Source: Phreatobacter aquaticus
GTDB lineage: Bacteria > Pseudomonadota > Alphaproteobacteria > Rhizobiales > Phreatobacteraceae
Direction of reading: 5' to 3'
DNA length: 64,000 bases
Assembly: GCF_005160265.1 (NCBI RefSeq)
Contig: NZ_CP039865.1
Coordinates: forward strand, 4,116,828-4,180,827
Below, piece by piece: positions 7,138 to 21,714 of the stretch. Below the pieces are notes generated by a model. The model was given only the letters and a program-made list of their open reading frames with translations, had not been told where the DNA came from and did not search any database. Each line of letters begins with the position of its first letter. Position 1 is the stretch's first letter. Made by a program: the position numbers and the translations under genes.

Positions 7138-7389
7138 ATGACCATCATCCAGTTCCCGACGGCTCCCGCCCTCAATGCCAGCGAGCCCCATGATCTGCTG
7201 CTGGAAACGCTGCGAGCGGCAACCAATCAGCTGTCGCAGGCCGGCAAGGCGCTGGTCCAATGTGACTCGGAGCCGGCCGCCCGCGTCGAGGCAGCCAGCC
7301 ATCTTGTCTCCGCCGGACAGAGCATCGTCGCCGCCCTCAACGCCTATCAACGCGGGCTGCAGCACGCTTCCGACCAGGCTGCAGGCTGA
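7138..7389 (+). CDS. Small hypothetical protein
   Basis: 83 residues starting at ATG 7138 with AAGGA 7 bases upstream. The product is Ala/Gln/Ser-rich and probably helical, with no membrane segment or signal peptide and a single Cys. I recognise no family. It precedes the nucleotidyltransferase gene by 41 bp on the same strand and may be co-transcribed with it. Coding confidence rests on the ribosome site and the position in an otherwise empty stretch. Confidence 0.6.
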   Translation: MTIIQFPTAPALNASEPHDLLLETLRAATNQLSQAGKALVQCDSEPAARVEAASHLVSAGQSIVAALNAYQRGLQHASDQAAG

Positions 7390-7430: not shown

Positions 7431-8618
7431 ATGGAGCTTCTGCCGCCGACCATTGCCGATTCCGATTCGCTACGCCTGGCCTGCGAGATCCTGGCCCTCG
7501 ACCGCGCTCCGGCAGGCCGCATGGCGCTGCGCCTCCGGCTGATGCAGCCGGATGTCTCCTGGCCCGCCCTCATTGATCTCGCCAACCAGCAGGGTGTGCT
7601 GGTCCCGCTCATCCACGCGCTGAAACAGGACGGCCTGCTTCTGCCGGTGCGCGCCGCCGCCAGTCCCGCCGAGCGCGAAAACCATGTCACCACCCGCCTC
7701 GACCAGGCCTACCGGGACCATCTGACCCGGCGCGCCGATCTGACCGACCAGATCGAAGCCATCATCAGGGCTTTGGCGCCGCTCGGCATCGAGCCGCTGC
7801 TGCTCAAGGGCGCGCGCCACCTTGTGGCGCCACTGTCGCCCTGGTGCGCGGCGCGCTCCATGCGCGACCTCGACATCTGCGTGGCCCCGGATCGGCTGGA
7901 TGAGGCCGTCTCCACCCTCAGGACGCTTGGCTATGAGGCGATCGAGGAGGGAACGGCCTTTGATCATCATGCGCCCGCCATGGCCCTGACCGGTCGTCAT
8001 GGTGCCGTTGAACTGCATGTCGATGCCCTGGCGCTTGGCGGCCGCAAGGTGCTGACCACTACCGAGGCCTGGCAGCACAGCGAACAGATCGTCGCAACCT
8101 TCGGCACCTTCCGGGTGCTGCGCCCGCAATGGCACCTGCTCCATGGACTTCTGCACCACGAGATCGCCGAGCGGGGCCATCGCCGGCATATTCTGGCCCT
8201 CAAGGGCCTGTTCGAATTTGCCAGCCTCGGCGTCTCATTGCCCGCCGCCCACTGGCAGGAGCTTGCCGATCACATGGCGGCGCGCGGCCAGGCGGCGGCT
8301 TTCGGCAGCTGGGTGGCGCAGGCCGGCATGCTGTTCGGGCTGCCCCTCCCCGACGGCCCCGCCATCACCCCCGATGCCCGGCGCCACGCCGAGGCCACGC
8401 TGGCGCGGGCGAGCGATCCCTATTGGCGGCGGCGCATCGGCTTCATTGCCGACCAGCTGCGCTTTGCCTTCGCCCGCGAGACGCTGGCACATCGCTACCG
8501 GATGGACGAGCGCGACGTGACGGTTGCGACGGCGCTGTCACAGGCCGGATCGATCCTCGGCCGCTATGGCCTCGGCATCGTGTCGCGGATCGCCGGCCGG
8601 CAGGACCGGTCGTCCTAA
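7431..8618 (+). CDS. Nucleotidyltransferase family protein (PF14907-like)
   Basis: 395 residues. The central part carries LLLKGARHL followed by RSMRDLDICV, the metal-binding signature of the uncharacterised nucleotidyltransferase family often found in lasso-peptide and PqqD/HprK-related clusters. In the pseudomycoidin cluster a member of this type has been reported to decorate a phosphorylated C-terminus with hexose. Here it sits at the edge of a minus-strand cluster with two HprK-related proteins and seven small peptides, converging on the GT2 gene with a 4-base overlap. I infer it acts on the modified peptides, perhaps adding a sugar or nucleotide to a phosphate. Family call good, substrate speculative. 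Confidence 0.85.
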   Translation: MELLPPTIADSDSLRLACEILALDRAPAGRMALRLRLMQPDVSWPALIDLANQQGVLVPLIHALKQDGLLLPVRAAASPAERENHVTTRLDQAYRDHLTRRADLTDQIEAIIRALAPLGIEPLLLKGARHLVAPLSPWCAARSMRDLDICVAPDRLDEAVSTLRTLGYEAIEEGTAFDHHAPAMALTGRHGAVELHVDALALGGRKVLTTTEAWQHSEQIVATFGTFRVLRPQWHLLHGLLHHEIAERGHRRHILALKGLFEFASLGVSLPAAHWQELADHMAARGQAAAFGSWVAQAGMLFGLPLPDGPAITPDARRHAEATLARASDPYWRRRIGFIADQLRFAFARETLAHRYRMDERDVTVATALSQAGSILGRYGLGIVSRIAGRQDRSS

Positions 8619-9715
8619 AGCGAACCGGCCCTGGCCGACGCGAGCGACGCCTTGACCAGCATCTCCTGCCGGTTCGGTGCGGTCAGCGCCGCTTGCCGGT
8701 AATGGACCGCGGCATCCGCGAAACGCCCGCTGCGGAAGGCCGCCAGCGCCAGCGATTCCTGCGCCAGATGGGTGAAGATCGCCTTGTCATAGGCGAGGTC
8801 CTCGTCGTGGAAGGTCTCGGCGTCGATCGCCGCCAGCCGCTCGAACACCGGCAGGGCCTGGGCGATATCGCCCCGCTCGAGCGCGATTTTCGCCTCGATC
8901 CATTGCAGCGCGAGATGGCGGGGGAACCGCGCACGCGCCTCGGCCAGCAGGGCGTCCACCGCTTCGCCGCTCCCATGCAGATGCTGGATGAGTGAGAGAT
9001 AGGGCGTGCTTTCGCTGTCACGGATCGCGGAGGCCGGCAGGCGGGCAATGGCGGCAATGCCATTGCGCCAGGCCTCCACCGCGCCTTCATTGTCACCGGC
9101 CGTCTTCAGCTGATCGCCAAGATGCCACCAGCAATAGACGCGGTTCGGATCCTCGGCGAGATAGCGGCGCAGCAGCGGCAGGTTGCGCGGCACCTTGGCC
9201 GCCTGGTCGTCCTCGTAGCCGACATGGTCGAGTGCCACGTCGCACATCCCGACGTGAAGCCCGTCCGCGCGGCAGACAGCGTCCACCGTTCCATGGACAC
9301 GCTCATGCACCACGCCTTCGAAGCGGATGCGCGGATCCCTGCGGAACAGGCGGAGCTCGGAATAGGCAGTCCAGCCGACACGCGGATGCAGCCGCAGGCG
9401 GGCGGCCGCGATATCCGGCCGGTCGATCTGCTGGCGCCAGTCCGCGGTCAACGGACGGAACCGCTCGTCGGCATCGATATAGAGGATCCAGTCGCCGGTC
9501 GCCTGCTCCAGCGCCGCATTGCGGGCAGCGGAAAAGTCGTCGCACCAGGGGAAGAAGCCGAGCTTGACCGGATAGCGCCTGGCCCGCTCGACCGTATCGT
9601 CGGTCGAGCCCGTGTCGACCACGACGATTTCATCGACAATGCCGGCCAGCGACGACAGGCAATCCTCGATGAAGCGCGATTCGTTCTTGACGATGAGCGT
9701 TGCGGACAATCGCAT
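8615..9715 (-). CDS. Glycosyltransferase family 2, SunS-like, with TPR-like C-terminus
   Basis: 366 residues. The N-terminal GT-A domain (about 1-220) opens with LSATLIVKNESRFIEDCL, has VVDTGSTDDT and the metal-binding ILYIDADERF. The remainder (about 230-366) is helical with TPR-like pairs. This architecture matches the SunS/ThuS-type group that glycosylates peptides, although many relatives act on other substrates. ATG 9715 lies 71 bp beyond the last small peptide gene and reads in the same direction, so it could be expressed with the peptide array. Peptide glycosylation is therefore a reasonable but unproven role. Confidence 0.85.
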   Translation of the reverse strand: MRLSATLIVKNESRFIEDCLSSLAGIVDEIVVVDTGSTDDTVERARRYPVKLGFFPWCDDFSAARNAALEQATGDWILYIDADERFRPLTADWRQQIDRPDIAAARLRLHPRVGWTAYSELRLFRRDPRIRFEGVVHERVHGTVDAVCRADGLHVGMCDVALDHVGYEDDQAAKVPRNLPLLRRYLAEDPNRVYCWWHLGDQLKTAGDNEGAVEAWRNGIAAIARLPASAIRDSESTPYLSLIQHLHGSGEAVDALLAEARARFPRHLALQWIEAKIALERGDIAQALPVFERLAAIDAETFHDEDLAYDKAIFTHLAQESLALAAFRSGRFADAAVHYRQAALTAPNRQEMLVKASLASARAGSL

Positions 9716-9786
9716 GAGACAATCCGCAGCCTGTCACCAATCAGCAGCGGGACAGAAGACCACGCCGCAGGACCGGCGGGGCCTGG

Positions 9787-9969
9787 TCAGCCGGCGCCGA
9801 CACCCGAACCGTTGGCAACCTGCGCATAGGCCTTCGAGATGACCAGTCCGTCCATGGCGAAGGAGGCGACGACCGGAGCCGCGAAGGCAGCGCCCTTGAC
9901 CAGGCTGTCGAGCGTCGCTCGCTTGGAGCTGTCGACGGCTTCAAGGGCCTTACCGTTGTCGATCTTCAT
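9787..9969 (-). CDS. Modified-peptide precursor candidate, copy A (60 aa)
   Basis: Last of seven paralogous small genes. The 60-residue product has a short variable N-terminus (MKIDNGKALEA), a charged stretch DSSKRATLDSL, a hydrophobic core AAFAAPVVASFAMDG, then ISKAYAQVANGSGV and the private ending GAG. ATG 9969 is preferred over an upstream TTG because it gives exactly the length of the paralogues. The upstream 50 bp resemble those of copy B. Function inferred only from the cluster. Confidence 0.82.
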   Translation of the reverse strand: MKIDNGKALEAVDSSKRATLDSLVKGAAFAAPVVASFAMDGLVISKAYAQVANGSGVGAG

Positions 9970-10020
9970 GACGTGCCCCAACCCCGATTTCCGAATTCAG
10001 ACTCTGTAGGACCAACCCAG
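9970..10020 (-). promoter_or_regulatory. Duplicated leader upstream of peptide copy A
   Basis: About 50 bp immediately upstream of copy A (minus strand) match the leader of copy B at 10276-10322, sharing GGTTGGTC, AGAGTCT, AATTCG and ATCGGGGTTGG in the same order. The match includes the ribosome site region and may include a promoter or a translational element. I cannot assign a regulator. Confidence 0.5.
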
Positions 10021-10060
10021 GCGAAACACAATCGAGTCCATGCCAAGGCGCTGCCGATCC

Positions 10061-10081
10061 CCCGACAGGATACCCGTCGGG
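10061..10081 (-). other. Stem-loop between peptide copies B and A
   Basis: Perfect 6-bp arms CCCGAC/GTCGGG around a 9-base loop, just after the stop of copy B. There is no T tract, so it is not a clear intrinsic terminator; it could protect a processed mRNA end or attenuate transcription into copy A. Confidence 0.35.
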
Positions 10082-10089
10082 ACCGCTCG

Positions 10090-10275
10090 TCAGTCGGGGG
10101 TGACGCCCGACCCATTGGCGACCTGCGCCTGGGCCCGGGAGACGACCAGTGCGTCCATGGCGAAGGAGGCGACGACCGGTGTCGCGAAGGCAGCGCCCTT
10201 GACCAGCTTGTCCAGCGTTGCCCGCTTGGAGCTGTCGATGCCTTCCAGGGCCTTGCCAATCTCTGTGTTCGACAC
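10090..10275 (-). CDS. Modified-peptide precursor candidate, copy B (61 aa)
   Basis: Paralogue of copies A and C. The core reads AAFATPVVASFAMDALVVS, followed by RAQAQVANGSGV and the private ending TPD. I take the GTG at 10275 as the start: it sits at the same distance from a GGGGTTGG leader element as the ATG of copy A. An in-frame ATG at 10311 falls inside the duplicated leader and is not conserved in copy A, so it is less likely. Confidence 0.8.
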   Translation of the reverse strand: MSNTEIGKALEGIDSSKRATLDKLVKGAAFATPVVASFAMDALVVSRAQAQVANGSGVTPD

Positions 10276-10322
10276 GTGCACCAACCCCGATTGCGAATTG
10301 AGACTCTTCATGACCAACACAA
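10276..10322 (-). promoter_or_regulatory. Duplicated leader upstream of peptide copy B
   Basis: Partner of the copy A leader, with the same ordered blocks and small differences. The ATG present here at 10311 is not conserved in the copy A leader, which argues that the segment is untranslated and supports the GTG start of copy B. Confidence 0.5.
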
Positions 10323-10392
10323 GCGAAAGCGAAGCAATCCCCGCGTCAAGTCGCGGACAATTCCCCAAAACAACGCCTGACTGGACTATTCG

Positions 10393-10575
10393 TTAGTTGC
10401 CCCCGACGCCCGACCCATTGGCGGCCTGAGCCTGGGCCCGGGAGACGACCAGTGCGTCCATGGCGAAGGAGGCGACGACCGGGGTCGCGAAGGCAGCGCC
10501 CTTGACTAGCTTGTCCAGCGTCGCCCGCTTGGAACTGTCGATGCTCTCAAGGCCCTTGGCGTTGTCGTTCATCAT
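10393..10575 (-). CDS. Modified-peptide precursor candidate, copy C (60 aa)
   Basis: Closest to copy B through the core (DSSKRATLDKLVKGAAF, then PVVASFAMDAL), but with Ala instead of Val before ANGSGV and the private ending GGN. It starts at tandem ATGs (10575, 10572) with AGGA about 8 bases upstream. It has a TAA stop where I read TGA for copies A, D and E. About 120 bp of non-coding DNA lie on each side. Confidence 0.82.
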   Translation of the reverse strand: MMNDNAKGLESIDSSKRATLDKLVKGAAFATPVVASFAMDALVVSRAQAQAANGSGVGGN

Positions 10576-10695
10576 GCTGATTCCTGCGGTCCGGATGATC
10601 TGTCTGAAAGACCTAATACAAACTTCGCAGGACGACAATCACGCCAGTGTCGCAAGGCAGGGATTATCCACTAAACGCGGCCGAGACGAAATGCG

Positions 10696-10878
10696 TCAGA
10701 GACCAACGACGCCCGAGCCGTTGGCGACCTGCGCCTGGGCCTTCGAGATCTTCAGTCCGTCCATGGCGAAGGAAGCCACGATCGGGGTCGCGAAGGCCGC
10801 GCTCTTCACGAGCCGGTCGAGGGTCCCGCGCTTCGATGCGTCGATCTGGCCAACAGTCTTGTCGCTGAACTTCTTCAC
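10696..10878 (-). CDS. Modified-peptide precursor candidate, copy D (60 aa)
   Basis: Member of the tightly spaced D-E-F-G group. The N-terminus is VKKFSDKTVGQIDASKRG, followed by the shared core PIVASFAMDGLKISKAQAQ and ANGSGV with the private ending VGL. The GTG start at 10878 is 22 bp after copy E and matches the starts of E and F. The spacer's GGAGG is degraded to GGGGG, so translation may be weaker. Confidence 0.82.
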   Translation of the reverse strand: MKKFSDKTVGQIDASKRGTLDRLVKSAAFATPIVASFAMDGLKISKAQAQVANGSGVVGL

Positions 10879-10900
10879 GAGTGCCCCCAAGGCGAACGCG

Positions 10901-11083
10901 TCAAACGGGCACGACGCCCGAGCCGTTGGCGACCTGCGCCTGGGCCTTCGAAATCTTCAATCCGTCCATGGCAAAGGAGGCGACGATCGGGGTGGCGAAC
11001 GCCGCGCTCTTCACGAGCTTGTCCAGGGTCTCACGCTTCGACGCGTCGATCTGGCCGATGGTCTTGTCGCTGAATTCTTTCAC
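10901..11083 (-). CDS. Modified-peptide precursor candidate, copy E (60 aa)
   Basis: Near-identical to copies D and F through the core. GTG start at 11083 with a strong AGGAGG 6 bases upstream in a 22-bp spacer. It ends in NGSGV followed by the private VPV. The putative modification serine is residue 55 of 60. The hydrophobic core covers about residues 27-39, followed by ISKAQAQ, which resembles a signal-peptidase AxA site. Confidence 0.85.
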   Translation of the reverse strand: MKEFSDKTIGQIDASKRETLDKLVKSAAFATPIVASFAMDGLKISKAQAQVANGSGVVPV

Positions 11084-11105
11084 GGTGCCCTCCTGGGCGA
11101 ATGCA

Positions 11106-11288
11106 TCAGGTCGGCGCAACGCCCGAGCCGTTGGCGACCTGCGCCTGGGCCTTCGAGATCTTCAGTCCGTCCATGGCGAAGGACGCCACGATGGGGGTGG
11201 CGAAAGCCGCGCCCTTCGCGAGCCGATCCAGCGTCTCGCGCTTGGAAGCGTCGATCTGGCCGATGGTCTTGTCGTTGAGTTCTTTCAC
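11106..11288 (-). CDS. Modified-peptide precursor candidate, copy F (60 aa)
   Basis: Second gene of the tight group. It starts at GTG 11288 with GGAGG upstream, 22 bp after copy G. N-terminus VKELNDKTIGQIDASKRE, core with LAKGAAFATPIVASFAMDG, and a tail ANGSGV with the private ending APT. Same length and reading as copies D and E, consistent with recent tandem duplication. Confidence 0.85.
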   Translation of the reverse strand: MKELNDKTIGQIDASKRETLDRLAKGAAFATPIVASFAMDGLKISKAQAQVANGSGVAPT

Positions 11289-11310
11289 AGCGCCCTCCAG
11301 GTCGAATGCG

Positions 11311-11493
11311 TCAAGCGGGCACAACGCCCGAGCCGTTGGCGACCTGCGCCTGGGCCTTCGAGATATTCAGTCCATCCATGGCGAAGGATGCCACGATCGG
11401 GGCAACGAAAGCCGTGCCCTTGGCGAGCCGGTCGAGCGTCGCACGCTTCGCGGAGTCGATCTCCTCGAAACCTTTGCCGTTCCCATTAACCAT
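11311..11493 (-). CDS. Modified-peptide precursor candidate, copy G (60 aa)
   Basis: First gene of the array in transcription order, 119 bp after the HprK-related kinase gene. ATG 11493 is preceded by a GAGG ribosome site. The N-terminus (MVNGNGKGFEEIDSAKRA) resembles A and C more than D-F, while the core AFVAPIVASFAMDG and the ending NGSGVVPA place it with D-F. The upstream 119 bp may carry an internal promoter. Confidence 0.83.
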   Translation of the reverse strand: MVNGNGKGFEEIDSAKRATLDRLAKGTAFVAPIVASFAMDGLNISKAQAQVANGSGVVPA

Positions 11494-11612
11494 GGTGGAC
11501 CTCATACTCACGGATGCATGGACTGCACTAGTACTGACAAGTTCAATCCGAGACAACCGCCTTTACCCTGCGTCCCATGCGAAACAGCGTCGCGTGGTAA
11601 TTCTGTCACGCC

Positions 11613-12467
11613 TCAGCACATCGACGCTGTGATCGCCTCGACCAGGGCGATCGCTCCATCAAGATCGCCGAGCGACACATCGAAGCCGCGGCTCGCCGAA
11701 GCGAGGCGCGCGAGCGAGGCAAAAGCCGACACCCTGTCCTGTTTCTGCACGGCAATCTCCGCCATGAGGCCCCGGATCAGCGCCATGGATGGAATGTCGC
11801 GCGCCGTCGTCAGCCCACCATGGTTGGACCGGAGCAACAGGATCGCGTCGACCGGCCCCTCGGCGATCGACCAGGACACGCCCGCGCTGCGCGGGTCGAG
11901 ATTGAAGATCCGGGCGCCGCGGTAATCCACGATGAACGGCGAGCCTTCGATCACGTCGGCGATTCGCGGCAGCCACGGCAGGGATGATTCCTTGATCCGG
12001 CAGCCGCGGGGTCGGGCGACGATTCCGGCGCCCGTCACGAACAGGTTCTCGTCGCTCTCCAGGGTGAACCCGCTGAGGGCGAGCCTCAGCGTCAGGGTCG
12101 TCTTGCCGGCCCCCTTGCGTCCCACCAACAGGATGCGCCGGCCATTCCGGACCAGACTTGCGGCATGGAGGATCGGCGCGCTCGGCCGGTCGGAGAGCGA
12201 CAGGTCGAACAGCCGGCCGTGCAGTTCGGCCAGCGTATCGTCCACGCCCAGCGTCTCGATATCGGCACGCCCCTCTTCGACGATCCGCCAGTGCCGGCCG
12301 GACGGCAGCACTTCGACCAGCGAATCGCTGGGTTCCGGTCCTGCGACCTCGGGATCGCAGGCCAGGTAACCGAGTGTCGCCTGCATCGCCGGATCGGGCG
12401 ACACCAGTGTCAGCCGGTGCGTCAGCGTGCGCGAGATGGTCGCGCCGGATCTTTTCTCCCCGCTCAT
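11613..12467 (-). CDS. HPr-kinase-related ATP-binding protein (intact P-loop)
   Basis: 284 residues. A divergent N-terminal domain is followed by a C-terminal P-loop kinase domain with GRKGAGKTT (Lys122), then a DEN acidic motif in TLESDENLF, as in HPr kinase/phosphorylase folds. True HprK regulates the phosphotransferase system by phosphorylating a serine of HPr. HprK-related proteins in the lasso-peptide clusters paeninodin and pseudomycoidin phosphorylate the C-terminal serine of the precursor. It lies directly upstream of the seven small genes whose tails contain an invariant Ser, so peptide phosphorylation is the leading hypothesis. Start ATG 12467 overlaps the upstream glycosyltransferase stop (ATGA). 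Confidence 0.83.
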   Translation of the reverse strand: MSGEKRSGATISRTLTHRLTLVSPDPAMQATLGYLACDPEVAGPEPSDSLVEVLPSGRHWRIVEEGRADIETLGVDDTLAELHGRLFDLSLSDRPSAPILHAASLVRNGRRILLVGRKGAGKTTLTLRLALSGFTLESDENLFVTGAGIVARPRGCRIKESSLPWLPRIADVIEGSPFIVDYRGARIFNLDPRSAGVSWSIAEGPVDAILLLRSNHGGLTTARDIPSMALIRGLMAEIAVQKQDRVSAFASLARLASASRGFDVSLGDLDGAIALVEAITASMC

Positions 12468-13720
12468 GCCGACACCAGCGGCTGAACGAGCGACAGGATC
12501 CGCGTCCGGAGCAGCCTCGCATCGTGGTCCCGCCGCACGGCCTGGCGGGCATTGACGACCAGGCGGCGGGCGAGATCCGGGCGGTCGAGGACGGCGAGGC
12601 ACGCGCTGGCGAAATCCTGCGGCGTGTCGGCGATCAGGAGATCGCGGCCATGACGCAGGCCAAGACCTTCAGCCCCGATCCGCGTGGAGACCGCGGGGCG
12701 CCCATGGCCGGCAGCCTCCAGAAGCTTGATCCGGGTGCCGCCCCCTGCCCTCAGCGGCGCAACCACAAGGTCGGCGTCGCGATAGTACGGAGCGACATCG
12801 GGCACGGTTCCGGTGACGGTGACCCCGCTGAGGGCGGCGAGCCGGCGGACCGCATCGGGCGGCGACATGCCGACGATCACCAGCCTGACCGGCTGCCGGC
12901 TGCGGGCCTGGATGCGGGGCAGGATCTGGCGCGCGAACCAGATGATCCCCTCCGAATTGGGCAGATAGCTCATCGTGCCGACAGCGACGATCACCCGCTC
13001 TCGGCCCCGGTGCCGCGCATGCGGCCGCCCGGTCATCGCGGCCGGAGCCGGTGCCGGATTGCCGACGGTCTCGACCGGCACGCCTGGCAGGAACGCGCCG
13101 AGCCGCGTGGCCTCGCGCGCCGAGGCCGCGAAACACAGGCTGGCACTGGGCAGGTCGCGGCGCGCCTGCTTGTCGAACTGGACGGCTTCGGCCATCGACC
13201 ATTGCGCAGCGTGGTGCTTGCCGCTCCGCCGCTGGAGCCGGGCCAACGCCCGATGAACGGCGGATTCCGCCTCGTCGCAATCGACGACGATGGGGACTGG
13301 CCCGCCCGCAAGGGGCAGATCCGCGAGGCCCGCGAGGTAGGTCCGCGAGACATGGATCAGATCGTAGCGCTCGGAACCCGCGAAGGCCTTGACCGCATCG
13401 CGCACGGCGACAGTCAACGGGGCGATCATCGAGGGATTGGCATAGCCGGCAAAGGCCGCGAGGCGGTCGGCGGGTTGGCGCAGCGAGGCGATCAGGGAAA
13501 AATGGCTATCCACGGATGACAGTTCGACCAGCGTGCTGCGCCGGCACAGGCCGGCGGCGCGCGGATCGACCCGCGGCGCTCCACCGACCGGCACAACGGC
13601 GAGGTCGACGTCGAAGGCGCCGGCATAGGCCGACAGAAACAGGAAGATGCGCATGGCCAGGCCATTGCCATCGGGCGACGGCGACGTCGGCGCAAGGAAC
13701 AGGAGGCGTGGCCGTGTCAC
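12464..13720 (-). CDS. Glycosyltransferase, GT4-like (GT-B fold)
   Basis: 418 residues. The N-terminus RPRLLFLAPTSPSPDGNGLA is the start of a GT-B donor/acceptor domain. The C-terminal half has VVAPLRAGGGTRIKLLEAAG, the nucleotide-sugar binding region with its conserved Glu, and a typical final helix. The start is taken at GTG 13720, overlapping the upstream stop by 4 bases; the longer open frame would run over the neighbour. It sits between a GT71-like gene and the HprK-related gene in one minus-strand series. Likely adds sugar to the peptide or to a carrier. Confidence 0.85.
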   Translation of the reverse strand: MTRPRLLFLAPTSPSPDGNGLAMRIFLFLSAYAGAFDVDLAVVPVGGAPRVDPRAAGLCRRSTLVELSSVDSHFSLIASLRQPADRLAAFAGYANPSMIAPLTVAVRDAVKAFAGSERYDLIHVSRTYLAGLADLPLAGGPVPIVVDCDEAESAVHRALARLQRRSGKHHAAQWSMAEAVQFDKQARRDLPSASLCFAASAREATRLGAFLPGVPVETVGNPAPAPAAMTGRPHARHRGRERVIVAVGTMSYLPNSEGIIWFARQILPRIQARSRQPVRLVIVGMSPPDAVRRLAALSGVTVTGTVPDVAPYYRDADLVVAPLRAGGGTRIKLLEAAGHGRPAVSTRIGAEGLGLRHGRDLLIADTPQDFASACLAVLDRPDLARRLVVNARQAVRRDHDARLLRTRILSLVQPLVSA

Positions 13721-14886
13721 GGTGGCGCAACCGTCAGGCCGGGAGTGTCGGCTGCGGCGAGCCGCGCGGCAAATCCGGGCGGACCGCAGCTGGCGCCGCG
13801 CCAGGTTCCGTCCGCAAGACGACGGAACTCGATCGCCAGGCGGATGTCGGAATAGAACTGCAGCACCGGCTCGCCGTCGCGCTCGACAACCGCCCAATGC
13901 TGCTCGAATTCGGCGCGCCCCGCGCCGATCCGGCCGCCACGATGCAGCGTGAGCAACCGCCAGCGGGAATCGCCGGACTGGTAGACGAAGCGCCCGGTTG
14001 CGATGAGCGCATCCTGCTCGGCCACAGCGGCATCAGCCGGGGCCTGGAAGATCGCGCCGCTCCACTGCCGGCCGAGCTCGATCAGCGAGTCCCGGGCGGC
14101 CCGCGTGGACGCGTCATCCGGCGTTTCCCGGTCCTGGCCGCCAAGGTGCCATTTGGACGTGCGCCGGTGCTGCACCATGGCCTCGCCCTGGAGGTCGCGG
14201 TGAATGAGGTCCAGCTCGACGTCAAACGGCGTGTAAGGCGCCAGGCCAAAGGGGCGCCCGGCCGCGAGAGCCGCCAGCAGCAGGGCCGAGGCCGGCCGCT
14301 GGCCAGGCAGCGCCGCAGGCGTCAGCGCCCCCGCCAGCCGGATGGCTTGGGCGACCAGGTCGCGATGCCGCCTGCGGTCGATGACCACCAGACCCGGATC
14401 GACGGACGGCACGGAACGCGACGCCAGGCCCGCCAGTGGCCAGGCCGGATTGGCTTCGCCGATGTCGCCACGGCCGGGAAAAAGCAACAGGCCGAGCTCG
14501 GCGACACCCGGCCAATCGAACAGCACCGAAATGTCGGTCAATGGCGCGCAATCGGCATCGACATACAGCACCTCGTCGAAGGCGCTGGCGGCGATGGCGC
14601 CCAGGCGCAGCATCTCCGGCTGGCGGTCGATTCCCGGCGCGAACACTCCGGTTGCGTCACGGACGGTCACATCCTTGGCCGCGATGAGATCGGCCATTCC
14701 GGTGTCCAGTTCGGCCGGCCCGCGATGCCAGAACTCGATCGGCAACAGGCAGCCATGGTGGCGCAGCAGTGACACCAGCACCCAGGCACAGGTGAAATAG
14801 CGCTTGCCGCCGCCGCAGACCACGATGCCGCGCGAGATTTGGCCCGCTGCTGCCGGACCATCGGGTGTGGGATTGGACTGAATCAT
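13717..14886 (-). CDS. Putative mannosyltransferase, GT71/Mannosyl_trans3-like (copy 1)
   Basis: 389 residues. The N-terminal GT-A-like part has GIVVCGGGKRYFTCAWVLV, then LPIEFWHRGPAELD and a DAD motif in VLYVDADCAPL, the pattern of the Mannosyl_trans3 family best known from fungal MNN1 enzymes. A second region with QHRRTSKWHLGG follows. It is a paralogue of the gene at 16119. ATG 14886 begins 25 bp after the HprK-related gene. Sugar and acceptor are unknown; the peptide products are candidate acceptors. Family call is from motif memory. Confidence 0.75.
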   Translation of the reverse strand: MIQSNPTPDGPAAAGQISRGIVVCGGGKRYFTCAWVLVSLLRHHGCLLPIEFWHRGPAELDTGMADLIAAKDVTVRDATGVFAPGIDRQPEMLRLGAIAASAFDEVLYVDADCAPLTDISVLFDWPGVAELGLLLFPGRGDIGEANPAWPLAGLASRSVPSVDPGLVVIDRRRHRDLVAQAIRLAGALTPAALPGQRPASALLLAALAAGRPFGLAPYTPFDVELDLIHRDLQGEAMVQHRRTSKWHLGGQDRETPDDASTRAARDSLIELGRQWSGAIFQAPADAAVAEQDALIATGRFVYQSGDSRWRLLTLHRGGRIGAGRAEFEQHWAVVERDGEPVLQFYSDIRLAIEFRRLADGTWRGASCGPPGFAARLAAADTPGLTVAPP

Positions 14887-14911
14887 CGCGGACAGGGCCT
14901 CCGGGCGCTTC

Positions 14912-15745
14912 CTAGCATCGAAGGGCGGCGGTCGCCCGCTCAATATGCCAGGCCGCACCGTCAAGGTCGCCGAGCGACAGGAGGCCGGCCGGAACCGCCA
15001 TGACGAGCGCCCGCAGGCGTGCAACTGCCAGCGCCACTCCCTCGTCCGGCATCAGCGCCAGAGCCATCAGCCGCGCGAACATATTGTCCGGCGACAGGCG
15101 CCCGAGTACCGAGCGGCCGCCGGAGTTCAGCTCCAGAACGATCAGCCCGGCCACCGGTCCCTTCTGGATCCGCCAGGGTCTTCCGGGCAGGCTCGGATCG
15201 ATCGCCGCGGTCTCCTGGCCAGACCAGCCATATTGCTTCGGCGCCTTGACGAACAGCTCCCCGGCCGCCGGCACCAGCCGCGCCAGATCGGGGGCAGCGA
15301 ACATCCGCGAGGGCCGCATGATGATGCCGCCCCAGTCGATCAGCGCATGTTCATCGCCCTCGACCTGATAGCCGCGCATCAGCATGTGGAGGGCGAGCGT
15401 GGTGCGCCCGCACCTCTGGTCGCCAATCAGCAGAAAGCGTCCCTGCGGCCCGATGATCGACGCCGCGGGCAGGAAAGCGTGGCCGGGATGGCTGGCCCCG
15501 ATCTGGCGAAGCGCGAAGCGCCGCCATTCATTGACGGCCTGCTGCGCGGTGGCGCGGATGCGGTGACCGTCCGGCAGGTTGAGCGACAGGAATCCGTCGG
15601 CGCAATCGACCGTGATATCCACCGGGGCGAGCGCCGCGTCCGCGATGTCGGGACTGCATTCGATGGCGGCAAGGACGGCAAGGACGGCCGCCGAGGCGTG
15701 CAGCCGGTATTCGTGGGTCAGGCTGCGGGCGCGGAGGGGGGGCAA
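14912..15745 (-). CDS. HPr-kinase-related protein with altered P-loop
   Basis: 277 residues, distant paralogue of the protein at 11613. At the P-loop it reads GDQRCGRTT: the Walker A lysine is Arg114 (codon 15404-15406, CGC), which usually abolishes or strongly lowers ATP turnover. Downstream, VEGDEHALIDWGG retains the acidic loop. It may be a regulatory or peptide-recognition partner of the intact kinase. The TTG at 15745 is taken as start because GGAG lies 11 bases upstream; it overlaps the PqqD-like gene by 28 bases, and a CTG further in cannot be excluded. Confidence 0.75.
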   Translation of the reverse strand: MPPLRARSLTHEYRLHASAAVLAVLAAIECSPDIADAALAPVDITVDCADGFLSLNLPDGHRIRATAQQAVNEWRRFALRQIGASHPGHAFLPAASIIGPQGRFLLIGDQRCGRTTLALHMLMRGYQVEGDEHALIDWGGIIMRPSRMFAAPDLARLVPAAGELFVKAPKQYGWSGQETAAIDPSLPGRPWRIQKGPVAGLIVLELNSGGRSVLGRLSPDNMFARLMALALMPDEGVALAVARLRALVMAVPAGLLSLGDLDGAAWHIERATAALRC

Positions 15746-16017
15746 GGCCGGATCAGCTCCTCGGTCACCAGCATGGTGATGCAGTCGCGGACCATGTCCA
15801 CAGGCAGTTCCGGCAGGTCATAGGCGTCTTTCAGGTAGCGCTCGACCTCGGGGATCGCGACGCCCTCGGCACAGAGTTCATAGACGGCGACGGCAGTCGG
15901 ATTGAGGAAATGCACGCGGTCGCGGCGCACCTGGTAGATGACATAGCCGTCCGGAACCTGGCTGAGCTCCAGACCTTCCTCGCCGACGAAAACCTGATCG
16001 CGCTCAAACGAAGCCAT
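15718..16017 (-). CDS. PqqD-like peptide-binding protein
   Basis: 99 residues with a winged-helix PqqD/RRE-type arrangement: VGEEGLELSQ, the strand YVIYQVRRDRVHFLNPTA, then VYELCAEG and a C-terminal helical part DMVRDCITMLVTEELI. PqqD-like domains bind leader peptides and present them to modifying enzymes. Its place between two HprK-related/GT genes and upstream of the seven small genes marks this as a peptide-modification cluster, matching the so-called HPr-rel-A systems. ATG 16017 gives the usual family length; no strong ribosome site is visible. Confidence 0.85.
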   Translation of the reverse strand: MASFERDQVFVGEEGLELSQVPDGYVIYQVRRDRVHFLNPTAVAVYELCAEGVAIPEVERYLKDAYDLPELPVDMVRDCITMLVTEELIRPCPPSAPAA

Positions 16018-16118
16018 GGTGTGCCAATATCCGCATGCGTTGCTGCTGGTCCGGTGCGATCCATTAGCGGAACCTGTCCCGACAGCGCAAGATTTCTGGA
16101 TGCAAGGCGATCCCCCAC

Positions 16119-17597
16119 TCAGGCCGCACCGTCGCCATGCGCGACATAGCCCATGGTGAGCAGGTCGATCCGCTTGTCGACATCGCGCCGGCCCGGCAGC
16201 CGGGCATCGAGCCGATCGGCCAGCAAGGCCAGCCGCGAACCTTCCGGAAGGCTGAGCGCAAGACGCCGAAGCCTGGGCGCAACACCCGGCTCGACCCCGT
16301 CGAGCACGATCAGCAGGGCTTCCAGAGCCACATCGTCGCAGGCGGGAAAGCCGGCGGCGGCAAGAAATGCAGGGATCAGGCCTGGCCCCTCGATCGCCGG
16401 CAGTGACGCGCCGGCCGCCCTGAGTTCGGCCGCACATTCGGGCGGCCCCAGCTTGCGGCCGATCCAATGACCGGGCTCACCCTCGTTCAACAGGAGGGTC
16501 GGGCCAAATCCGCCCTCGATCACCAGGGAGAAGCGCGCCGCGCCGGGTGAGGACGTGCCGGAATCCATGGCATCGATGACCGCCCAGTTGCGCAGGACCG
16601 CATCGCGGCCAACACCGATCTCGCCATGGGCGAGCAATTGGAGCGGCAGCGTGCGATCCGCTGCCAGATGGAGATCAAACAGGCCGCCGGCGAGCTCCGC
16701 CTCGCGCGCCCGGGCTGCGGGCCCACGCGGCGGCCCGTGGAAGATGCGCCCGCTCCATAACTGCTCCAGCTCCTGGAGATAGCGCAGGCAATCGGCCTCG
16801 TGCTGGAAATTGGCAACCGCCACCTGTGCGTCCCCGAGGCTCCATTTGGCGCTGGTGCGATGCTGGAACAGCGGCCGTCCCTCGAGATCGCACTGGAACA
16901 GCACACGCGGATCGACGAAGGGCGCATGCGGCACACGCGCGAACGGCGCCTCCTCCAGAAGCCAGCCGATCAGGAACGTGTCCTTGTCGCCATAGATGAT
17001 CCCGTAGAACTGGTCGGCCTGCTCGTTCAGCCGCAACACCCGCTCAAGGGTGCCGGCGTGTCGGCGGCGGTCGACCAGCAGCTGGCCGCTTTCCAACGAC
17101 GGCATCTGGCGGGGCGGCAGGCCCACCAGCGCCCAGACCGGGTTGTCGGCACGCAGATCGACAATGTCGGGCCAGAACACCGCTCCGGTCTCCCGGTAGG
17201 CCGGCCAGTCGAACAGCGGGGCGGGATCGCGTACCGGCACCTGGTCGGCGTCGAGCATCAACACCTCGGCAAGCCCGGTTCGCGCCAGCGCGAAGGCCTT
17301 GAGCTGCCAGCCGTCCCGGATCAGCCCGCCCTCGGTGGCGATCATTGCGGAGGCATCGATCACCGTCACGCCATGCGCCGCCAGCAGCGCCGCCATGGCC
17401 GGCGACATCTCGGCCGCTCCCATGTGCCAGACCTCGATCGGCAGCGAGCAGCCAAGCGTGTCGCGCAGCACGCGGATCAGCACATAGGCATTGGTGAACA
17501 TGCGCGCGCCGCCGGCGCAGACCAGGATGCCCTGCCCGGTCCCGGTCATCGGGCTTTCAGGCGAGGCTTGGCCGATGCCGTCTGTCGGTACGCCCAT
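16119..17597 (-). CDS. Putative mannosyltransferase, GT71/Mannosyl_trans3-like (copy 2)
   Basis: 492 residues. It shares with copy 1 (13717) the segments GILVCAGGARMFTNAYVLI, LPIEVWHMGAAEM, VLMLDADQVPV and QHRTSAKWSLGD, so the pair are paralogues. It carries an extra C-terminal part of about 100 residues with Leu-rich helices. ATG 17597 has a GGAT just upstream. It is the first gene of the minus-strand cluster and divergent from the FkbM gene at 17704, so the 106 bp between them should hold the promoter. Acceptor unknown. Confidence 0.75.
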   Translation of the reverse strand: MGVPTDGIGQASPESPMTGTGQGILVCAGGARMFTNAYVLIRVLRDTLGCSLPIEVWHMGAAEMSPAMAALLAAHGVTVIDASAMIATEGGLIRDGWQLKAFALARTGLAEVLMLDADQVPVRDPAPLFDWPAYRETGAVFWPDIVDLRADNPVWALVGLPPRQMPSLESGQLLVDRRRHAGTLERVLRLNEQADQFYGIIYGDKDTFLIGWLLEEAPFARVPHAPFVDPRVLFQCDLEGRPLFQHRTSAKWSLGDAQVAVANFQHEADCLRYLQELEQLWSGRIFHGPPRGPAARAREAELAGGLFDLHLAADRTLPLQLLAHGEIGVGRDAVLRNWAVIDAMDSGTSSPGAARFSLVIEGGFGPTLLLNEGEPGHWIGRKLGPPECAAELRAAGASLPAIEGPGLIPAFLAAAGFPACDDVALEALLIVLDGVEPGVAPRLRRLALSLPEGSRLALLADRLDARLPGRRDVDKRIDLLTMGYVAHGDGAA

Positions 17598-17703
17598 GAT
17601 ATGCTGATATCCCCTGCCCGGCCGGATGATCCGGTGCCCATCCGGCTTGCGCAAGTCCCGGTCGCCTCGCACTATCCGCGCTTCATGCCGCAGGAGCTGC
17701 CGC

Positions 17704-18561
17704 TTGACCATCCGTTCATGGCTGCGGCGCGCGGCCAATGTCCTGCCCGTGCTCGGGCCGCTGCTCAAGGACCGGGCAAGGCTGGCGGCGGAACGGGACC
17801 GCTTCGCCTCGATTGCCGGCCACATGGCGCATCTGCATCACCGCGTGCTCGCCGAGCGGGCCGGCCTCAAGCTGCTGCTCGACACCCGCTCGCTGGTCGA
17901 TTGGCATGTCTTCATCGAGAATGCGTGGGAGCCCCGGCAGATCGACATGATGATGGCCGCCGCCCGCTCATTCAGCGGCGATCCCCGGCCCAAGATCTTC
18001 CTCGATATCGGCGCCTGCTGGGGGCTCTATGCGCTGAAAGCCCATGCCCTCGGCCTGTTCGACCGGATCATCTGTTTCGAGCCCGACCGGATGAACGCCG
18101 CTCAGCTGGAGGCGCAGCTGTTCCTCAACGAGGCGGGCTATACAATAGAGATTGACCGCCGCGCGGTGTCGAACCGCTCCGGCACGGCCAGGCTGGAACG
18201 CGCCGGCGACAGGGCCGACCACAACCGCGGCGCCGCTCACCTGACCACCGACGAGGCGGCCAGCGAACCGGTCGAAACCGTCGCGCTCGACGATCTGTTC
18301 GACATCCGCGACCATATCCTGTTCATCAAGCTCGACGTCGAACGCCACGAGGCCGAGGCGCTGGAAGGCATGGCCCGGCTGATCGCCAACAACCATGTCT
18401 ACCTGCAGGTCGAGATCTGGCCGGATCGGATCGACGCCATCTGGCCGCTCGTGCCACCGTCCCTCCGCCATCGGGCAAGCATCGACATGGACCATGTGTT
18501 CACCAGCTTCGATCCGCCCTCGGGCCTCTTCCCGCCTCTTGCATCCGACCTTGCCAGGTAG
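17704..18561 (+). CDS. FkbM-family methyltransferase
   Basis: About 285 residues. The SAM-binding motif FLDIGACWGLYALKA is followed by IICFEPDRMN and, further on, the FkbM-type VALDDLFDI...LFIKLDVERHEAEALEG. FkbM proteins methylate hydroxyl groups of sugars and natural products. The start is set at TTG 17704 because AGGAG lies 7 bases upstream; the ATG at 17626 would add 26 Arg/Ser-rich residues and has no ribosome site. It is followed 9 bp later by an Anp1-like glycosyltransferase, suggesting methylated sugar on the same product. Confidence 0.8.
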   Translation: MTIRSWLRRAANVLPVLGPLLKDRARLAAERDRFASIAGHMAHLHHRVLAERAGLKLLLDTRSLVDWHVFIENAWEPRQIDMMMAAARSFSGDPRPKIFLDIGACWGLYALKAHALGLFDRIICFEPDRMNAAQLEAQLFLNEAGYTIEIDRRAVSNRSGTARLERAGDRADHNRGAAHLTTDEAASEPVETVALDDLFDIRDHILFIKLDVERHEAEALEGMARLIANNHVYLQVEIWPDRIDAIWPLVPPSLRHRASIDMDHVFTSFDPPSGLFPPLASDLAR

Positions 18562-18570
18562 CCCCCCCGC

Positions 18571-19338
18571 ATGTCCGACAGCCTGCCCAACCTCCTCATT
18601 CTCACGCCGGTCAAGAACGCCGCGCGCCATCTTCCAGGCTATCTCGATCTGGTGGAACGCCTGACCGTTCCCCAGGAGCGGCTGGCCATCGGCTTTCTGG
18701 AAAGCGACAGCACCGATGGGACGTTCGAGGCGCTGGAAGCCGCCCGTCCTCGGCTGGAAGCGCGGTTCAACCGCATGACCCTCGTCAAGCGCGACTATGG
18801 GTTCCGCATGCCGGAGGGCGTGCCCCGCTGGGCCCCGGCCTATCAGCTGATCCGGCGCGCCAATCTGGCCCGCGCCCGCAATCAGCTGCTGTTCCGTGCA
18901 CTGCGCGACGAGGATTGGGTTCTGTGGCTGGATGTCGACGTGGTCGACTATCCCGCCGACCTGATCGAGCGGCTGCTCGCATACCAGCTGGACATCGTCC
19001 ATCCCCATTGCGTGATCGAGCCGGGCGGCAAGACCTTCGACCTCAATGCCTGGCGCGACAATGGCACCAGGACCATGCACGACCTGAGGGGCACCGGCCG
19101 CCCTGTCCGGCTCGATGCTGTCGGCGGCACGGTGCTGCTGGTGCGGGCTGATCTCCACCGCGACGGCCTGATCTTCCCGGCCTTCCGCTATGGCGCCGGC
19201 AGCCCGACCGCCCGCGACAAGCATCCGCTCTGGGGGCGTGGCGAGATCGAAACGGAAGGCTTCGGCGTGCTGGCCCACGATATGGGGTTGCAATGCTGGG
19301 GTCTGCCCGATCTCGAGGTACGGCACGCGCCCGAGTGA
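18571..19338 (+). CDS. Glycosyltransferase, Anp1/GT62-like
   Basis: 255 residues. It begins LLILTPVKNAARHLPGYL, has GFLESDSTDGTFEAL and the metal-binding DWVLWLDVDVVDYP, and later DAVGGTVLLVRADLHRDG. This order is that of the Anp1 (GT62) mannosyltransferases best known from yeast mannan polymerase, with bacterial relatives. ATG 18571 follows the FkbM stop by 9 bp. It converges on the molybdenum-hydroxylase gene. Likely part of the glycosylation set of the peptide cluster. Confidence 0.8.
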   Translation: MSDSLPNLLILTPVKNAARHLPGYLDLVERLTVPQERLAIGFLESDSTDGTFEALEAARPRLEARFNRMTLVKRDYGFRMPEGVPRWAPAYQLIRRANLARARNQLLFRALRDEDWVLWLDVDVVDYPADLIERLLAYQLDIVHPHCVIEPGGKTFDLNAWRDNGTRTMHDLRGTGRPVRLDAVGGTVLLVRADLHRDGLIFPAFRYGAGSPTARDKHPLWGRGEIETEGFGVLAHDMGLQCWGLPDLEVRHAPE

Positions 19339-19344
19339 GCCGCC

Positions 19345-21714
19345 TCAGCCGGCGGTTCCGTGCACCGCCCGCCACAGGCTTTCCGGCGTGAACGGTTGCT
19401 CTGAGACCCAGGCCCTGTCGGGCCCCAGCGCATCGTTGATGGCATTGGAGACCGCGCCGCTCGCCCCCATCACGCCGCCCTCCGACATGCCCTTCATACC
19501 GCCGGGCGTCAGTCGGTTCGGTCGGTTGAGCGGCACGACCTCGATATCAGGCAGGTCGGTGGCGCGCGCCACCGCATAGTCCATGAACGAGCCCGCGAGC
19601 ATCTGGCCATCGGCGCCATAGGCGCAGCGCTCCATCAAGGCACCTGACAGGCCCATGCCGACGGCGCCATGCACCTGCCCCTCGACGATGGCGGGATTGA
19701 TCTCGACGCCGCAATCATGGGCCACGACATAGCGCAGGATGCTCAAGGTGCCCGTGCTCGGCTCGATCTCGACCAGGCAGGCATGGGTGGCATTGGCATA
19801 GGTCATGGCCGGCGGATCGAAGGCTGCCGTCACATGCAGGCCCGGCTCCATGCCCTCGGGCAGGCTCAGCGGATCGAGATGCGCGCTGCGGGCGAGGCCG
19901 GCGAGCGTCTGGCCAGTCGCCGTCCATTGACCTTCGACCAGCCGCAGCACCGCGCCATCGGCGAGCGTCAGGCCTTCCGACCCGTTGAGATTCAGCTGAT
20001 GGGCGGCAATCGCCAGGAGCTTGTCGCGCAGCCGGCGCGCCGCGATCAGCACCACGCCACCACCCGCCGTGCCGCCCCGCGCCCCGCGGCTGCCCATGCC
20101 ATAGGGCGCGATATCGGTATGGCCGAGCTGGACGGCGATATCCTCGATCCGGGCGCCGAGGCCTTCCGCCGCGCATTGGGCGAGCGTCGTCTCGTAGCCC
20201 TGCCCCGACCCCATGATGCCGCAGGAGACGAAGACCGCCCCCGACGGCTCGACCCGCACCGTTGCGGTCTCGTGGCCGGAGCCTGCAATGCCGGCATTCT
20301 TGTAGAATTTCGAGCCATAGGTGGTGGGCTCGACCACCGTGCAGAAGCCGATGCCGGTCAGCCTTCCGGCGCGGCGGGCGCGCTTCTGTTCGGCCCTGAG
20401 ATCGGCATAGCCGATCGCGGCGACGGCGGACTCCAGCGTCTCGGCCGGCGTCACGTCGACATAGGTCTCGCCGGTGATCGTCACGAAGGGCAGATCGGCT
20501 GAGGTGATCGTGTTGCGGCGGCGCACCGTCACCGGATCCAGCCCGAGATCGCGGGCAATATGGTCCATCGTGCCCTCCATGATCCAGGAGGCGCTCGCCA
20601 TCGGCGCGCGCATCGGTCCGGAGGGGCACTTGTTGGACAGATAGACCTTCACGTCATAGCCATAGGCCGGCACGCGATAGGGCCCGGGCAGGATCAAGGC
20701 CACCACGCGCGCCATGTAATTGGCCGGGAAGAAGCAATAGGCGCCGACATCGGCCTCCATCCGCGCTTCCAGCCCGAGCAGTCGCCCGTCGCGGGTGACG
20801 GCCGCGCGCGTGACGATCGTCTCCTCGCGGGCATGCAGCGCCGCCATCAGGTTCTCGCCGCGCTCTTCCTGCCAGCGCACCGGGCGCTCCAGCGCCATGG
20901 CGAGCGCCGCGATGGTCAGTTCCTCGCGGAGCAGCGCGATCTTCTGGCCGAACCCGCCGCCCATGTCGGGCGAGATAACGGTCACCTGGCCCTCGCTGAG
21001 GCCAAGCCTGCCGGCCAGCGCCGAGCGCAGCGGATGTGGCGCCTGGTTGCCGGTCCGCACCGTCAGGTGGCGGCGGCCGGCATCCCATTCGGCGACAATG
21101 CCGCGCGGCTCCATCGGCACATGGGTCTGGCGCGCCTGCGAAAACCGCGCCTCGACGATACGGTCGGCCTTGGCGAAGGCCTGCGCCAGTTCGCCCTTTT
21201 CGAAGGTCTGGTGCGAGGCGAGATTGGTCGGCAGGGCCGGATCGACCGGTTCGCCGGTCTCCGCCATGCCGGCAGCCGCCGGGCGCTCGGCATAGTCGAT
21301 GACGACAGCCTCCGCCGCGTCGCGGGCGATGGCGAGCGTCTCGGCCACGACCACAGCCGCGAGATCACCGACGAAGCGCACCTTGTCGACCGGAAAGGGC
21401 GGCACGTCGACCGGCTTCAGCCCCTCGATCGGCGGCGCCATGCGCAAGGTCGAGGCGCGCGCCGCGACATCCCGGCCGGTCCACACCGCAACAACGCCCG
21501 GCATGGCCAGCGCCTCGGCCGCGTCGATGCTGACAATGTCGGCATGCGGATAGGGAGACCGGACGAAGACCGCATGCAGCGCGCGCGGCACCGCGATATC
21601 GGCGAGATAGCGGCCGCGGCCGGTGAGAAAGCGTTCGTCCTCGCTCCGCCGGACATCCGCGCCGATGCCGCCCGAGGATCGCGGCGTGCCATCGTCGGGG
21701 ATTGGCCCCCTCAT
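19345..21714 (-). CDS. Xanthine dehydrogenase/aldehyde oxidase family, molybdopterin-binding subunit
   Basis: 789 residues, the length of a stand-alone large subunit. The N-terminal a/b hammerhead domain (GRGRYLADIAVPRALHAVFV) and molybdopterin segments DMGGGFGQK and the C-terminal KGMSEGGVMGASGA, with the expected active-site Glu, are intact. The usual AYRGAGR loop is replaced by GPMRAPMASAS, so substrate specificity should differ from known CO, xanthine or isoquinoline enzymes. Neither the [2Fe-2S] nor the FAD subunit gene is in the window. Its start overlaps the sugar ABC ATPase stop (ATGA), so it is the last gene of that operon. Confidence 0.9.
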   Translation of the reverse strand: MRGPIPDDGTPRSSGGIGADVRRSEDERFLTGRGRYLADIAVPRALHAVFVRSPYPHADIVSIDAAEALAMPGVVAVWTGRDVAARASTLRMAPPIEGLKPVDVPPFPVDKVRFVGDLAAVVVAETLAIARDAAEAVVIDYAERPAAAGMAETGEPVDPALPTNLASHQTFEKGELAQAFAKADRIVEARFSQARQTHVPMEPRGIVAEWDAGRRHLTVRTGNQAPHPLRSALAGRLGLSEGQVTVISPDMGGGFGQKIALLREELTIAALAMALERPVRWQEERGENLMAALHAREETIVTRAAVTRDGRLLGLEARMEADVGAYCFFPANYMARVVALILPGPYRVPAYGYDVKVYLSNKCPSGPMRAPMASASWIMEGTMDHIARDLGLDPVTVRRRNTITSADLPFVTITGETYVDVTPAETLESAVAAIGYADLRAEQKRARRAGRLTGIGFCTVVEPTTYGSKFYKNAGIAGSGHETATVRVEPSGAVFVSCGIMGSGQGYETTLAQCAAEGLGARIEDIAVQLGHTDIAPYGMGSRGARGGTAGGGVVLIAARRLRDKLLAIAAHQLNLNGSEGLTLADGAVLRLVEGQWTATGQTLAGLARSAHLDPLSLPEGMEPGLHVTAAFDPPAMTYANATHACLVEIEPSTGTLSILRYVVAHDCGVEINPAIVEGQVHGAVGMGLSGALMERCAYGADGQMLAGSFMDYAVARATDLPDIEVVPLNRPNRLTPGGMKGMSEGGVMGASGAVSNAINDALGPDRAWVSEQPFTPESLWRAVHGTAG

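Follow-up and report, generated by a model that had tools for sequence, protein, structure and literature searches.

A candidate RRE-guided peptide glycosylation cassette with seven precursor paralogues in Phreatobacter aquaticus, with related loci in Alphaproteobacteria and Actinomycetota

What is made by a bacterial gene cassette in which seven small, related peptides are encoded among glycosyltransferases, HprK-like proteins and a PqqD-like protein? We addressed this question for a cassette in a 64,000-nucleotide stretch of DNA (hereafter, the window) from the complete, 4.97 Mb genome of Phreatobacter aquaticus. On its minus strand, from 17.6 to 8.6 kb, lie genes for GT71a, PqqD, HprKa, GT71b, GT4, HprKb, the seven peptides and a family 2 glycosyltransferase (GT2), flanked on the plus strand by NTP_transf_5 on one side and by FkbM and Anp1 on the other. 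Pfam and NCBIfam searches bear out this gene set and its strands as named in a first-pass annotation, which had proposed that the peptides are jointly modified at an invariant serine in their tails. Our results favour, with fair though far from full confidence, a system resembling those that make ribosomally synthesized and post-translationally modified peptides (RiPPs), in which a RiPP recognition element (RRE) guides glycosylation of the peptides, usually together with phosphorylation. The cassette is not a chance assemblage, since a related cassette is found at 15 further loci and the paralogues are under purifying selection.

These 15 loci, in Alphaproteobacteria and Actinomycetota, supply the neighbourhood comparison that the first-pass annotation had called for. 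Gene content was assigned by iterated profile search over 16 loci (the window, L015-L020, L027-L029, L032 and L040-L044), and a precursor peptide, a PqqD-like protein and a SunS-like GT2 occur together in 16 of 16, a constancy that supports RRE-guided glycosylation. For the GT2 the figure holds partly by construction, as this gene served to find nine of the 15 added loci, which is not the case for PqqD and the precursor. HprK is detected in 13 loci, GT4 and Anp1 in 12 each, GT71 in 11, NTP_transf_5 in 8 and a separate FkbM gene in 2; L042 begins at a contig end. L015 belongs to a Phreatobacter metagenome-assembled genome (MAG), taken as genome G400, the second cassette-bearing genome of the genus, on the agreement of contig (C35) and position; the genus name rests on that match.

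The seven window peptides, each defined by its open reading frame (ORF) and by paralogue alignment, are encoded on the minus strand at 9787-9969 (60 aa), 10090-10275 (61 aa), 10393-10572 (59-60 aa), 10696-10878, 10901-11083, 11106-11288 and 11311-11493 (60 aa each), the second, fourth, fifth and sixth from GTG starts. The description of seven paralogues of about 60 residues thus holds: they measure 59-61 residues, are 66-75% identical to the first and share 30 invariant columns, and a search of the complete genome for further copies returned only these seven at E <= 1. None contains Cys (0/7). Among the seven, pN/pS is 0.22 in the leader, 0.64 in the hinge, 0.05 in the tail segment QVANGSGV and 1.0 in the last three residues; over ten Phreatobacter paralogues (the seven plus three copies from L015) it is 0.28, 0.38 and 0.05 for leader, hinge and QVANGSGV, values that are descriptive only because paralogue pairs are not independent. 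QVANGSGV is the most constrained part of the ten, and the ample synonymous change (pS 0.47 in the tail) indicates that selection holds the tail and leaves the C-terminus free. A profile of the window peptides matched one of 289 class genomes, the window's own, and in six genomes all of its matches (10/10) fell inside cassettes with PqqD and GT2 genes. Together with the joint occurrence of the three core genes at loci that, being found through the GT2 in nine cases, are not independent, this agrees with the earlier view of the peptides as likely substrates.

The leaders of these precursors carry a motif that resembles those read by RREs. We collected 28 precursors over the 16 loci, of which 27 from 15 loci (all but L043) were scored for tails and AxA. 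The motif [YF]xxPx[VI]x[ST]F is present in 27 of the 28, with Phe in 19 and Tyr in 8, and all seven window precursors have the Phe form; the exception, the L043 precursor, reads VVTIPTVVSYSL in its place. Outside precursors the strict motif occurs once in 668,852 six-frame codons (334 kb), which favours RRE-guided glycosylation. It resembles the [Y/W]xxPx[L/V/I...] read by the discrete RREs of lasso peptide and linear polyphosphorylated peptide (LPP) systems, as given in the consulted portion of the LPP report (PMC13381572). The candidate reader is the PqqD-like protein (15718-16017, minus strand; PF05402 20.0 bits, 9e-4; TIGR04353 22.7 bits, 1.4e-4), a predicted RRE: a 16-sequence PqqD profile finds as its best PDB matches the lasso RRE TfuB1 (0.0037) and PqqC/D (0.0039), both weak.

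The proposed initiating peptide glycosyltransferase is the GT2, which carries a TPR region (8615-9715, minus strand; Pfam GT2 1.4e-18). Its nearest NCBIfam model is SunS (78.3 bits), and its closest PDB sequences are GmaR (1.1e-23), ThuS (5.4e-18) and SunS (1.7e-17); GmaR, like SunS and ThuS, acts on a polypeptide. A structural model of high confidence (pLDDT 94.2) gave SunS and ThuS as best Foldseek matches (4.6e-18 to 1.1e-16, TM 0.59-0.66 by query; next class 1.3e-8), with a different domain arrangement, so that the nearest solved folds of the predicted structure are those of peptide glycosyltransferases. The cassette nonetheless differs from that of the glycocins: the SunS score is far below the model's cut-off of 350, the window precursors lack Cys and are signal-like, and a separate PqqD accompanies the GT2. 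Once Cys is absent, Ser and Thr are the acceptors expected of SunS-like and GmaR enzymes. L043 encodes two PqqD domains, one in frame with GT4 and one with an FkbM methyltransferase domain, and the latter ties FkbM to leader binding. This PqqD-FkbM frame (L043:6047-7588), in an Actinomycetota genome, adjoins the GT2 gene; RRE-glycosyltransferase fusions have been noted in RRE mining, in the portions consulted of PMC12710340 and PMC7470986.

Around the constant leader the tails vary widely, which makes the acceptor residue directly testable. Short tails read QVANGSGV (window, L015), NGTGS (L016, L017), QQTNSSN (L019) and Y[VL]TN (L042); L027, L029 and L041 have GNAG, GNSY or GNT, L028, L040 and L043 have Thr-rich tails, L044 has GGSNTTD repeats, and in L020 and L032 the tail is a larger protein. 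Thr-rich tails in three loci and the constraint on QVANGSGV fit a tail that receives sugar. The L043 precursor (L043:8680-9700, minus strand; about 262 aa) is mucin-like, combining repeated GGGGNT units with an extended TTAAP tract. Asn is present in 27 of 27 scored tails, including all eight short ones tested apart; the chance figure of 5.7e-7 for these eight assumes that homologous loci are independent and should not be read as a true probability. N-x-S/T is found in the tail in 21 of 27 scored precursors and 11 of 15 scored loci. We rejected an N-glycosylation sequon as the rule, as L027, L028, L029 and L041 lack N-x-S/T and long tails hold Asn easily; it is kept as a hint only.

Two precursors end in a Peptidase_S74 (endosialidase chaperone) domain, here fused to an RRE-motif-like leader and a short core (L017:9953-10411, 1.1e-7; L018:9202-10068, 6.2e-8). 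The domain follows the core directly and starts at SDRRLK, the known self-cleavage position of the family; cleavage between S and D would free a core similar in size to the short precursors. In the GT2 tree, loci cluster by precursor type: L027, L029 and L041 form one group (89/93), and seven NTP_transf_5 loci, the window among them, form another (100/99). The S74-tailed loci do not share a sub-clade and sit next to short-tailed or Thr-tailed loci, which suggests tail exchange.

How would such a peptide leave the cell? By pattern, precursors resemble signal peptides of the twin-arginine translocation (Tat) type in 13 of 16 loci (in one, L044, the N-terminus is missing), with KR or RR followed by 19 residues of hydropathy 1.15-1.90 and, in most cases, AxA. 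[KR]R is present in 24 of 28 precursors and AxA follows the motif, again by pattern, in 24 of 27 scored (the L028 and L044 instances are doubtful, and L043 has none); the L020 precursor reads GRRTFLRR, close to the Tat consensus. Tat use would fit a bulky, already modified substrate. The first-pass annotation had seen no dedicated exporter, which is true of the genes (20 ORFs scanned near the relatives' loci held no exporter or peptidase that the loci share, and the lone nearby ABC ATPase, at 21714-22793, has MalK-type domains), but the precursors may themselves carry the export signal. Precursors of L027, L029 and L041 lack K/R-R, AxA and the hydrophobic stretch (hydropathy 0.35-0.90) and keep the motif as YEAPKVVSF, YEPPKVISF and YEPPKVATF; the motif therefore has a role apart from export.

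From the genes, their synteny, the motif, the pattern of selection and the predicted folds we infer the following sequence of events. The PqqD protein would bind the [YF]xxPx[VI]x[ST]F motif of the precursor and present the tail, QVANGSGV in the window, to the SunS-like GT2, which would attach an initial sugar to one residue of that tail. The glycan would then be lengthened by GT4, both GT71 enzymes and the Anp1-like enzyme, and FkbM may methylate it. Where HprK is present, its intact form may phosphorylate the tail or the glycan, and NTP_transf_5 could modify that phosphate, as proposed for PsmN in pseudomycoidin. In most loci the leader would then be reused as a Tat-type signal peptide, after which the exported glycopeptide might be cut to about ten residues or stay anchored. 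The seven copies would represent dose, not diversity.

Several points weigh against this reconstruction. The chemistry, whether sugar or phosphate on the peptide, is a prediction from the genes, and the glycosyltransferases other than the GT2 could serve a separate polysaccharide. HprK is undetected in 3 of 16 loci and GT4 in 4 of 16; the PqqD scores are below the curated cut-offs (23.4 for PF05402, 35 for TIGR04353), as is that of HprKb (TIGR04352, 52.8 bits against 200). The motif aromatic is Phe in 19 of 27, while lasso and LPP leaders have Tyr or Trp and LPP leader binding uses the Tyr hydroxyl, absent from Phe (PMC13381572, portion consulted). An NCBIfam scan of ten precursors matched no signal family, and the precursors of L027, L029 and L041 show that Tat export cannot be general. 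Finally, N-x-S/T does not fix the acceptor, for which Asn is the most conserved candidate.

Could the peptides be phosphopeptides instead? In a system of the LPP or paeninodin type, HprK would phosphorylate a tail serine, NTP_transf_5 would add a hexose or nucleotide to the phosphate, and the other glycosyltransferases would belong to a neighbouring polysaccharide locus. The window encodes two HprK-like proteins, and the contrast drawn earlier between an altered and an intact one is confirmed: HprKb (11613-12467, minus strand; TIGR04352 3.1e-14) retains the Walker A motif as GRKGAGKTT, whereas HprKa (14912-15745, minus strand), which has no HprK family match of its own and was aligned with the others by iterated profile, reads GDQRCGRTT, its lysine replaced. 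The HprKa counterpart in the Phreatobacter MAG (L015:5314-6126) has also lost the lysine and yet is kept, so HprKa is probably a scaffold and not a kinase, perhaps retained as a non-catalytic partner. Against the PDB the HprK family profile matches HPr kinase 1ko7 (5.6e-7), with RecA constructs scoring higher (1.1e-9) and ABC ATPases also matching on the P-loop, and the HprKb model (pLDDT 93.5) matches PEPCK (3.2e-9) and HprK (2.6e-4), two proteins that share a fold. These matches are consistent with a phosphorylation step under RRE-guided glycosylation as well. The sole HprK of L041 has GWQD where most read GDE. The NTP_transf_5 protein (7431-8618, plus strand; PF14907 1.5e-24) retains a D-L-D resembling that of the nucleotidyltransferase motif, and has no match at 0.1 among PDB sequences.

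Several points speak for the phosphopeptide proposal: LppK acts on serine (PMC13381572, portion consulted), PadeK and PsmK act on a C-terminal serine and PsmN on the phosphate, giving in pseudomycoidin a phosphate-hexose (PMC9266682, portion consulted), and HprK and NTP_transf_5 are found in 13 and 8 of the 16 loci. The SunS-like GT2, of a peptide-modifying type, is more constant than HprK (16 against 13, with nine loci found by GT2), and relatives do not conserve the N-x-S serine, which is Thr in Bradyrhizobium (NGT) and replaced elsewhere (GNAG, GNT, TNIP). The proposed joint modification at an invariant tail serine is, as worded, not supported, given this variation, the presence of Asn in every scored tail and the pN/pS of the last three residues. 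The first-pass annotation had held that peptide homologues lacking HprK or PqqD neighbours would speak against its proposal; PqqD accompanies them in all 16 loci, but a search of the locus stretches detected no HprK in L032, L043 or L044 (all Actinomycetota; L044 is a 5.9 kb contig), which speaks in part against that proposal and means that the system cannot be defined by phosphorylation. On these grounds we rejected phosphorylation of the tail serine as its defining step, and a phosphopeptide system of this type appears unlikely.

LPP systems, paeninodin and the glycocins are nevertheless the nearest known kinds. According to the consulted portion of PMC13381572, these share with the cassette a discrete RRE, an HprK-like kinase, an NTP transferase, linear precursors with a conserved leader (YxxPxV in LPP) and variable C-termini, a patchy distribution, and leader removal by a signal-peptidase-type enzyme, which for the cassette is only presumed. 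By the same account LPP systems are restricted to Bacillota, their listed core has a SipW-like peptidase and an MsbA-like transporter (neither of them among the 20 window proteins scanned) and lacks a SunS-like GT2, and their leader reads YxxPxVLxHQxIxFETxxS against FxxPxVASFAM in the window; the HQxIxFET extension was not seen by eye in any of the 28 precursors. Paeninodin and pseudomycoidin (PMC9266682, portion consulted) have in common with the cassette a leader-binding B1 protein, an HprK-type kinase and a nucleotidyltransferase-type phosphate decoration, the last proposed for the cassette. They differ in that the window has several glycosyltransferases and lacks a cyclase or B2 protease match, and paeninodin is modified at C-terminal residues, which in the seven window peptides vary freely (G, D, N, L, V, T, A). 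The cassette was rightly judged not lasso-like, as the families of lasso cyclases, B2 proteases and radical SAM enzymes all went unmatched among the 20 window proteins scanned. The HPr-rel-A system (TIGR04352/TIGR04353) likewise pairs an HprK-related kinase with a PqqD-related chaperone, and both models score below cut-off here.

The other glycosyltransferases raise a second alternative, in which the peptide is primer or anchor of a mannan-like polysaccharide, the GT2 starting a chain that GT4, GT71 and GT62 enzymes build into a long, peptide-linked surface glycan. The families concerned are present: GT71a (16119-~17597, minus strand, start uncertain; PF11051 5.9e-29), GT71b (13717-14886, minus strand; PF11051 1.2e-15), GT4 (12464-13720, minus strand; PF13692 4.1e-28) and the Anp1-like GT62 (18571-19338, plus strand; 4.1e-46), the last in 12 of 16 loci. 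GT71 and Anp1 families are best known from yeast mannan synthesis. The Thr-rich tails would suit such a role, and LPPs and paeninodins often lie in capsule loci (PMC13381572, portion consulted). No polysaccharide polymerase or flippase family was found among the 20 window proteins scanned, and sequence cannot tell glycan length; we regard this alternative as quite unlikely. It is very improbable that the precursors are ordinary, unmodified Tat-signal membrane peptides beside an unrelated glycan locus, as the signal-like sequence in 13 of 16 loci might suggest, given that window peptide profile matches are confined to these cassettes, that three loci keep the motif without a signal-like stretch and that the tail is the most constrained part. 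A defence system was also rejected, PADLOC giving only weak matches (AbiEii 2.5e-5 on the nucleotidyltransferase, two others 0.0014 and 0.0034).

RRE-guided glycosylation may have a broader form, which we put forward tentatively and as a doubtful extension: a yeast-like form of protein mannosylation in bacteria, targeted by a RiPP leader, which would be read by an RRE for cytoplasmic glycosyltransferases and then by the Tat machinery exporting the glyco-(phospho)peptide. With interchangeable tails (sequon-like core, mucin-like Thr tract, S74-trimmed core), it would be a general maker of surface glycopeptides, possibly a mannan primer. The first-pass annotation had called the combination unfamiliar; the set of multiple glycosyltransferases is real, but the related LPP family was published in May 2026. 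In the literature searched, to which the claim is limited, this cassette is not described. If correct, the proposal would describe a little-known bacterial route to sugar-coated peptides, join the usually separate fields of RRE-guided peptide modification, bacterial protein glycosylation and Tat export, and carry the logic of LPP systems, in which an RRE, HprK and an NTP transferase act on linear peptides, from Bacillota into Alphaproteobacteria and Actinomycetota. A short, transferable leader directing multi-step cytoplasmic glycosylation and then export would be useful for glycopeptide engineering.

Within the window, the preferred starts, if right, give 4-base overlaps between GT71b and GT4 and between GT4 and HprKb, which fit a translationally coupled operon. 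The FkbM gene (17626-18561, plus strand; 2e-10) is a probable member, kept in the Phreatobacter MAG. The block from NTP_transf_5 to Anp1 is kept together in both cassette-bearing Phreatobacter genomes, which speaks for the proposal, while the two flanking genes examined do not adjoin it in the second genome, where the flanking oxidase is on another contig and the flanking epimerase has no match. Translated comparison (tblastx) of the window flanks with L015 gave scattered short matches only, and no empty insertion site is readable because across the genus the two flanking genes do not stay together. Genes scanned outside the cassette are of ordinary metabolism (enoyl-CoA hydratases, AtuA, short-chain dehydrogenases/reductases, aldose epimerase, molybdopterin oxidase and a sugar-type ABC transporter). 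An 83-residue ORF with no Pfam match (7138-7389, plus strand) lies between the aldose epimerase and NTP_transf_5 genes.

The system is rare, and its distribution is patchy. Six loci beyond the window came from a pattern scan of GTDB species contigs. GT2 searches, by single protein or by alignment, whose counts each include the centre genome and whose genome sets overlap, gave 1/385 genomes of the class at 1e-40, 3/81 relatives at 1e-30 (including 2/12 of the genus), 2/195 in Bradyrhizobium (the genus of G386), 3/276 in the family of G388, 3/246 in the phylum to which G390, a Solirubrobacterales MAG, belongs, 1/200 in the window's phylum and, with the MAG's own GT2, 2/121 in the order of G390; misses are possible in the large searches, where scoring was limited to the 5 to 16 best candidates of each genome. 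Plasmid carriage was rejected, since 72,556 plasmid records held no GT2 match at E 1e-30. In L041 the GT71 match, counted among the 11, is a fragment only, and an integrase-core (rve_3) gene (14846-15724) lies near the precursor; a sulfotransferase lies near the L028 locus. Two genomes carry two cassettes each with different tails, G386 on contigs C1 and C8 (L016, L028) and G892 on C121 and C191 (L040, L042).

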